A DNA stretch of 51,976 nt from Phycisphaerales bacterium. GTDB taxonomy: Bacteria; Planctomycetota; Phycisphaerae; Sedimentisphaerales; Anaerobacaceae. The position numbers and the translations under genes are program-made. The notes below the pieces were generated by a model. The model did not search any database. It had not been told where the DNA came from and saw only the letters and a program-made list of their open reading frames with translations. This document shows positions 17,236-21,343 of the stretch, piece after piece (within the stretch, counting starts at the first letter, position 1; each line of letters opens with the position of its first letter). The DNA lies in the NCBI GenBank assembly GCA_030602885.1, contig JAUVYV010000024.1, forward strand, positions 1 to 51,976. The letters run 5' to 3'.

Positions 17236-17787
17236 TTATTGAGCTTGTGTAACGGCCACGTATATATGGCAGGCGGTCTTGCGAATCGGATGCGCCCTGC
17301 CTCTGTCCTTGGGTATCCACCTCTTGGTGCCGATTCGAACACCGGCGTCGTCAACACGCGCCTCACTGATACGGAGATTTTCGACGTCGGCCTGCTGCTC
17401 ATCCGCATCCGCAACCGCTGCCTTCAGGACCTTGTCAACCATTGAAGCGGCTCGCTTCGGCGTAAACTTCAGAATGTCCATCGCGTCCTGAACGCTGCGG
17501 CCGACAATCAACTGCGCAACCAGTCTGGCCTTCCTTGCCGAAAGCGGCGCATATTTGTAAGACGAACGCCAATCCGACAGGTCATTTACATCAACACCCA
17601 GGGCGGCAGCCAACCGACTCATATCCTCACGGCTCGGCCTGGGCCTGAACAGGCCCTTTTGCCAGTTCCGAACGGCGGCGGCGGCGGCTTTCTTATCGAG
17701 CCGGCCTCTGATAAGCTGGTCGGCCAGCTTGTCCACAGTTACGTTTCGTTCGTCACAGATTTCTTTTAATTTACCAGCGCTCAACAT
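17236..17787 (-). CDS. rplV: Ribosomal protein L22 with N-terminal HTH-like domain
   Basis: Residues 77-183 are a normal L22: KYAPLSARKARLVAQLIVGR and the C-terminal KDRGRAHPIRKTACHIYV hairpin that reaches the exit tunnel. Before it lies a ~74-residue extension. Its pattern, LKEICDERNVTVDKLADQLI then VRNWQKG and MSRLAAALGVDVNDLSDW, resembles a Cro/C1-type helix-turn-helix fold. Normal L22 is about 110 residues. The extension begins at an ATG 17 bp after the rpsS stop and no better internal start is seen, so the fusion looks genuine. Its function is unknown; DNA, rRNA or protein contacts are all possible. Confidence 0.93.
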   Translation of the reverse strand: MLSAGKLKEICDERNVTVDKLADQLIRGRLDKKAAAAAVRNWQKGLFRPRPSREDMSRLAAALGVDVNDLSDWRSSYKYAPLSARKARLVAQLIVGRSVQDAMDILKFTPKRAASMVDKVLKAAVADADEQQADVENLRISEARVDDAGVRIGTKRWIPKDRGRAHPIRKTACHIYVAVTQAQ

Positions 17788-17803
17788 TGCGATTCAAACA
17801 CCA

Positions 17804-20974: not shown

Positions 20975-21343
20975 ATTCTGCCTCTATGCTCTAAACAAAA
21001 CAGCTTTGCTGATATACACTCTCTATCTTTGCAAAAACAAAGCTTTCTAACTTATGGCAGGCAAGGCATTGACCCGTGCCGAACGCTCGAAACCAACTCT
21101 ATCGCTCGATTCTCAGGTCACCTTCCTTAACGGACCCGGGTGCGGGCTGCTCAAAGCACCACCTTCTGAAGCTGCACAAATATAGCTGCTCTACAGCCCT
21201 TCCAAAGCTTCTGGCCGGCTTTGGTCTACCCCTCAGTTCCCAGAGTTCCTACAAAACCGTCCCTGACGACTGTTTACAGACGTGTTACAGCCCAACTCGT
21301 CTAACGCAAAGCCGTCCCTGGCAATGCTCGCTACGGCTGAAAA
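20975..21343 (-). promoter_or_regulatory. Long 5' leader of the S10 block
   Basis: This ~370-nt stretch between the predicted start site and rpsJ has no credible gene. It holds a 7-bp hairpin (CCAAAGC / GCTTTGG, 21202-21224) and a 14-bp direct repeat (CAGGGACGGCTTTG and CAGGGACGGTTTTG on the minus strand; 21307-21320 and 21252-21265, 13/14 identical). Long S10 leaders regulate by ribosomal-protein binding in some bacteria. The structure here is not one I recognise. Confidence 0.5.

Follow-up and report, generated by a model that had tools for sequence, protein, structure and literature searches.

A predicted Cro/C1-type helix-turn-helix domain fused to ribosomal protein uL22 in Sedimentisphaerales and two families of Phycisphaerales

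Ribosomal protein L22 (uL22) of the Phycisphaerales bacterium studied here carries about 75 extra N-terminal residues (residues 1-75), which are predicted with high confidence to adopt a Cro/C1-type helix-turn-helix (HTH) fold, the evidence from sequence and from modeled structure being in agreement. This clade-wide domain fusion in a universal ribosomal protein is real and apparently undescribed: no earlier description pairing L22 with an HTH in Planctomycetes was found in open-access full texts. To our knowledge, universal ribosomal proteins in bacteria rarely gain whole folded domains. The HTH domain has probably become a lasting additional component of the ribosome close to where nascent proteins emerge, and a structural role in contact with rRNA or at the exit site is the best current reading, held with moderate confidence. 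A fold normally belonging to repressors would then be part of the large subunit throughout a clade, probably close to nascent proteins and targeting factors.

Gene, fold and translation of the extended L22

The L22 gene occupies positions 17236-17787 on the minus strand of the window (the whole stretch of DNA analyzed, 51,976 nt), with an ATG at 17787 and a product of 183 aa. The open reading frame was found where a preliminary description had placed it, and the roughly 74 extra N-terminal residues and the peptide patterns quoted there are present in it. The locus is the str-S10-spc cluster, with the gene order EF-G, S10, L3, L4, L23, L2, S19, L22, S3, L16 and onward. The L22 core (17239-17562, minus strand) is ordinary: residues 77-179 match PF00237 (E 4.9e-29, 101 bits vs. 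a cut-off of 28), TIGR01044 scores 97 bits across the full L22 domain (curated cut-off 73.65), and Foldseek leads to bacterial uL22. As the only PF00237 match in the genome it is the sole L22 copy; with a score over the cut-off, a single copy and a position in the S10 operon between S19 and S3, the protein is a bacterial uL22. Alignments to all solved L22 relatives begin only at about residue 71-82 of the window protein. Two PF00237 matches per genome were seen in three other class members (G583, G561 and G589), which may be due to assembly redundancy.

The N-terminal HTH domain extends over positions 17563-17787 (minus strand). Searched alone, the window extension matches HTH_26 (PF13443) with an E-value of 4.6e-4 and 20.8 bits, slightly below the cut-off of 22 bits, and the window protein misses the Pfam gathering cut-offs of HTH_26, HTH_3 and HTH_31, the best score being 21.1 bits vs. 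22 (HTH_26); a fold is therefore claimed and not membership in a single Pfam family. Among 29 aligned homologous extensions, HTH_3 matches 13 (best E 9.7e-7), HTH_31 ten and HTH_26 ten at E ≤ 0.01, and HTH_31 matches 7 of the 14 extensions from Phycisphaerales (best E 2.7e-8). AlphaFold2 places helices at residues 4-14, 18-25, 32-43 and 53-63, with a mean pLDDT of 84 for the extension alone and 90.6 for the full protein. These computational models contain the four- to five-helix domain of the Cro/C1 type, with helices 2 and 3 as the helix-turn-helix; the loop between these two helices comprises six residues (26-31), as against the short turn of about four in XRE proteins. Foldseek and VIA-align returned Cro/C1-type HTH domains (CylR2, C.Csp231I, P22 c2, SinR and DdrO) and also the HTH part of HppE/HEPD, with VIA-align Z-scores of up to 10.2 (rmsd 1.6 Å over 64 residues) and 125 of 584 chains at Z ≥ 8. 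The Foldseek E-values were modest (best 0.016), which is usual for a domain of 75 residues.

Profiles, predicted structure and conservation across the clade thus bear out the HTH fold and the fusion that had been proposed from the letters of the sequence, although not the exact location of the motif. The preliminary description had placed it in VTVDKLADQLI followed by MSRLAAALGVDVNDL; in the model the former is helix 2, but the recognition helix spans residues 32-43 (KKAAAAAVRNWQ), and helix 4 corresponds to MSRLAAALGV. A continuous beta strand (residues 71-80; 17548-17577, minus strand; DSSP of the model, pLDDT 90-95) passes without a break from the HTH domain to strand 1 of L22, and the junction contains no low-confidence linker, so that the two parts look rigidly joined; in the model the HTH domain is apparently held firmly on the N-terminal strand of uL22.

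Judged from 117 distinct sequences, the extension is translated and under purifying selection and is not an annotation slip, because its start codon is conserved, its dN/dS is low (0.18, compared with 0.07 for the L22 core; 22 independent close pairs) and it is present in every Sedimentisphaerales genome with a detected L22. Of these sequences, 69 start with ATG and 47 with GTG, and an aligned ATG or GTG is found in 116 of the 117. A Shine-Dalgarno-like word precedes the start in 84/117, and those sequences of the Phycisphaerales family f5 that were looked at start with GTG, usually preceded by an AGGA-like word. A true L22 start near residue 75, with the upstream frame untranslated, had been named beforehand as an outcome that would speak against the fusion. 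Some ATG, GTG or TTG codon does occur at residues 64-82 in 87/117 sequences, and the window has only a distant Shine-Dalgarno-like word and no well-placed one. However, no conserved internal start was found near residue 75 in the 117 sequences (the most frequent occurs in 29), and only 18 have a Shine-Dalgarno-like word before an internal start. The ATG follows the S19 stop codon after 16 nt (17788-17803, minus strand), a gap that a start at residue 75 would widen to about 240 nt. Together with the start-codon conservation and the dN/dS of the upstream part, this contradicts the internal start and leaves a misannotated gene with practically no probability.

Distribution and history of the extension

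All 56 Sedimentisphaerales genomes with a detected L22 have an open frame of 183 aa or longer at that gene. Of 298 class genomes, 89 gave a match to the extension profile at L22, 60 of them in the order and 29 in the families f5 and f9; a 392-genome phylum sample contained 22 such genomes, all from these same groups. Sampled members of the families f6, f7, f8 and f105-f119 and the remaining phylum sample lack it. Comparison of L22 across Planctomycetota, proposed earlier as a measure of how far the extension is conserved, thus found it throughout Sedimentisphaerales and in two Phycisphaerales families, and not in the rest of the sample. The clades were named through loci from named records and, by tree position and sequence identity, were placed as Sedimentisphaerales and Phycisphaerales MAGs including UBA5793. 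Four MAG records titled Vicinamibacteraceae, Leptolyngbya, Candidatus Kuenenia and Limnohabitans (L113, L142, L172 and L190, respectively) have S10-operon contigs that group inside Phycisphaerae and are probably mislabeled or contaminated bins. At the locus of Planctomycetota bacterium PNC21 (L118) the HTH extension is divided over two frames, with matches in two ORFs; a sequencing error and a decaying extension in an early branch are candidate readings.

Profile comparison indicates that the extensions of Sedimentisphaerales and of the Phycisphaerales families are clearly homologous: hhalign between the two clades gave a probability of 99.6% (E 9e-25, 72 columns), and a profile built from Sedimentisphaerales only matched f5 extensions at E 1e-15 to 1e-20, other HTH_3/XRE domains of the same genome reaching only E ≥ 0.07. 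In a tree of eight concatenated ribosomal proteins from 120 taxa the extension occurs in two separate clades, Sedimentisphaerales and one within Phycisphaerales, where f8, which lacks it, adjoins f5 and f9. If gain and loss are both unconstrained, two changes (both of them gains) explain the distribution; a single gain calls for about seven losses. The L22-core tree rejects a single clade of extension-bearing sequences (p-AU 0.006) and with it the idea that one clade acquired its complete L22 gene from the other by horizontal transfer. An ancestral gain with about seven losses and a transfer of the 5' part only both fit; independent gain of the same domain is a further possible history. Whether by about seven losses or by two separate gains, this history shows that lineages can dispense with the domain over evolutionary time. 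A close free-standing relative as the source was also sought; the profile gave only four weak matches away from L22 in the 298 class genomes (E 4.6e-4 to 0.0045).

Surface conservation, operon leader and proposed role

Conservation within the domain is uneven. W42 is found in 117/117 sequences, N41 and P49 in 116/117 each, and L21, A38 and A60 in more than 100 each. Helix 3 (residues 32-43; 17659-17694, minus strand) occupies the place of the recognition helix; the exposed positions of its N-terminal half, by which classical Cro/C1 proteins read DNA, are hypervariable here, with a mean entropy of 2.93 bits vs. 2.01 for the domain. In pairs that are 49% identical overall, these positions are 25% identical and form the most variable part of the domain, and residues 40, 41, 44, 45, 48, 49 and 50, at the end of helix 3 and in the following loop, are 64% identical. 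A control XRE-cupin regulator of the same order showed 53% identity at its recognition positions at 56% overall in a small set of only eight sequences; by that comparison, the conservation of base-reading positions among orthologs that marks XRE factors is not seen in the extension. The mean net charge of the extension is +4.2 (117 sequences), and residues 27, 40, 44 and 48 are basic in 59-84% of sequences. The proposed contact surface is a conserved, largely basic patch formed by the C-terminal end of helix 3 together with the next loop (residues 40-49, with N41 and W42; 17641-17670, minus strand); N41, almost invariant, looks exposed and lies beyond the hydrophobic core. Variable recognition positions combined with a conserved basic patch make a single conserved DNA site less likely and point to a fixed partner touching the end of helix 3 and the loop that follows. 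Since the domain is attached to L22, the simplest such partner would be part of the ribosome.

With 23S rRNAs from ten genomes with and ten without the extension aligned to E. coli, no indel was common to both extension-bearing clades and absent elsewhere; a loss near E. coli position 1500 in f5 and f9 also occurs in some genomes without the extension. Thus there is no visible loss of an rRNA helix that the domain would make up for. Genome-specific extra segments in 23S rRNA, likely intervening sequences or introns, were seen in four genomes: about 290 nt near position 1860 in G127 (L264), about 450 nt near 1160 in G496 (L277), and about 90 nt near 260 in G000 (L262) and near 540 in G261 (L266).

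Upstream of S10 lies a conserved structured RNA leader (core 21282-21341, minus strand, with more conserved blocks to about 21050). Its motif AGCGAGC...GCG...AGT is contained in two helices with 91% of cells paired, and 7 of 11 pairs changed on both sides, a covariation that none of 500 shuffles reached. The covariance model detected the leader in 54 of the 62 order genomes searched, and in comparable cases 3.4-3.9 kb separate it from the L22 gene downstream. The leader matches no Rfam family, is apparently undescribed and is a candidate autoregulatory leader for a ribosomal protein; its conservation upstream of S10 makes it probable that in Sedimentisphaerales the operon is leader-controlled by some ribosomal protein. 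Outside the order only weak matches were obtained within the class (E ≥ 0.008), so f5 and f9 appear to carry the extension without the leader. No evidence links the leader to the HTH. An alignment of the region upstream of S10, viewed by eye, showed no order-wide palindrome; a conserved DNA operator was rejected, the conserved element being an RNA structure.

We favor the HTH as a structural, rRNA-contacting domain of the ribosome near the tunnel exit, with a probability of about 0.55. The L22 gene would make a two-domain ribosomal protein whose HTH domain, to judge from homologous uL22 extensions, would sit on the outside of the 50S subunit beside the tunnel exit. The conserved basic patch (N41-W42 and residues 40, 44, 48 and 50) would pack on nearby 23S rRNA, and the domain would stabilize the surroundings of uL22 while the 50S subunit is assembled and alter the shape of the exit surface to which nascent-chain factors bind. 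The HTH would serve as a ribosome-binding module, as in MBF1/EDF1, and not as a DNA reader. We infer the location near the exit and the rRNA contact from MBF1/EDF1, from uL22m extensions and from the position of uL22 around the exit; counting against this reading, the two extension-bearing clades share no compensating 23S rRNA deletion, the MBF1 precedent concerns the small subunit and the domain is evolutionarily dispensable.

The preliminary description had suggested that an added domain could bind rRNA, mRNA or DNA, for example for autoregulation; rRNA is plausible among these, and autoregulation through DNA or mRNA has gained no positive support. Under the latter, free L22 in excess would bind DNA or leader RNA of its own str-S10-spc operon through the HTH and lower expression. 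XRE domains are DNA binders by default and a structured leader does sit upstream of S10 in Sedimentisphaerales, but variability in the domain peaks at the exposed recognition-helix positions, f5 and f9 have the extension and not the leader, and XRE repressors normally dimerize, whereas L22 is a single-copy protein of the ribosome. Such an autoregulator is unlikely, and DNA-binding autoregulation is less likely than a structural role at the rRNA or exit site. A combination, in which the HTH is an rRNA-binding or exit-site module beside the tunnel exit on every ribosome of these planctomycetes and possibly also links free L22 to control of the S10 operon via the leader RNA, is possible but less likely than not. 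The domain might instead mainly recruit or exclude a lineage-specific nascent-chain factor at the exit rather than hold rRNA. In E. coli ribosomes uL22, uL23, uL24 and uL29 surround the exit site, which is a docking platform for biogenesis factors, and plastid exit-protein extensions have been proposed to alter factor recruitment (PMC5071890); this role too is rather improbable. Still less probable is that a spare HTH joined L22, folds harmlessly and is kept merely to avoid misfolding. The extension does evolve faster than the core and shows apparent repeated loss or a patchy distribution, but a dN/dS of 0.18, order-wide retention and the almost invariant, apparently exposed N41 weigh against neutral accretion.

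Comparison with known systems

The XRE factors CylR2, C.Csp231I, SinR and DdrO share the predicted fold of the extension at about 20% identity. The extension differs from them in its longer helix 2-3 loop, its variable recognition surface and its fusion to a ribosomal protein. The best sequence matches among solved structures were to TniQ, with the HTH of CAST transposition (E 0.0015-0.0025; motif W....F.P.PS....A..V), of which only about 50 residues align and whose context and function differ.

Enlargement of uL22 by lineage-specific sequence is likewise known from plastid uL22c, fungal uL22m and the Mycoplasma L22 fusion model PRK12279/NF008917; no description of these extensions as an HTH was found in the open-access literature. 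PRK12279 matches the L22 core alone in the window protein (residues 82-178, 45.5 bits against 526). In fungal mitoribosomes, uL22m contributes helical elements at the exit through its N-terminal extensions (PMC7560712). The case described here is a natural experiment on how ribosomes outside organelles gain protein mass. Since the order includes named families (Sedimentisphaeraceae and Anaerohalosphaeraceae), material for cryo-EM should be obtainable.

A functional likeness is proposed to MBF1/EDF1, whose Cro/C1 HTH is sandwiched between the rRNA helices h33 and h16, archaeal MBF1 binding 30S and 70S through its HTH (PMC7486125). Both cases would place a Cro/C1-type HTH on ribosomes, the rRNA contact of the extension being proposed by analogy only. 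MBF1/EDF1 is a separate, non-stoichiometric factor of the small subunit that is reported absent from bacteria, whereas the HTH described here is fused to a protein of the large subunit; the fusion provides a natural test of whether HTH folds are more generally pre-adapted for rRNA binding, as MBF1 suggests.
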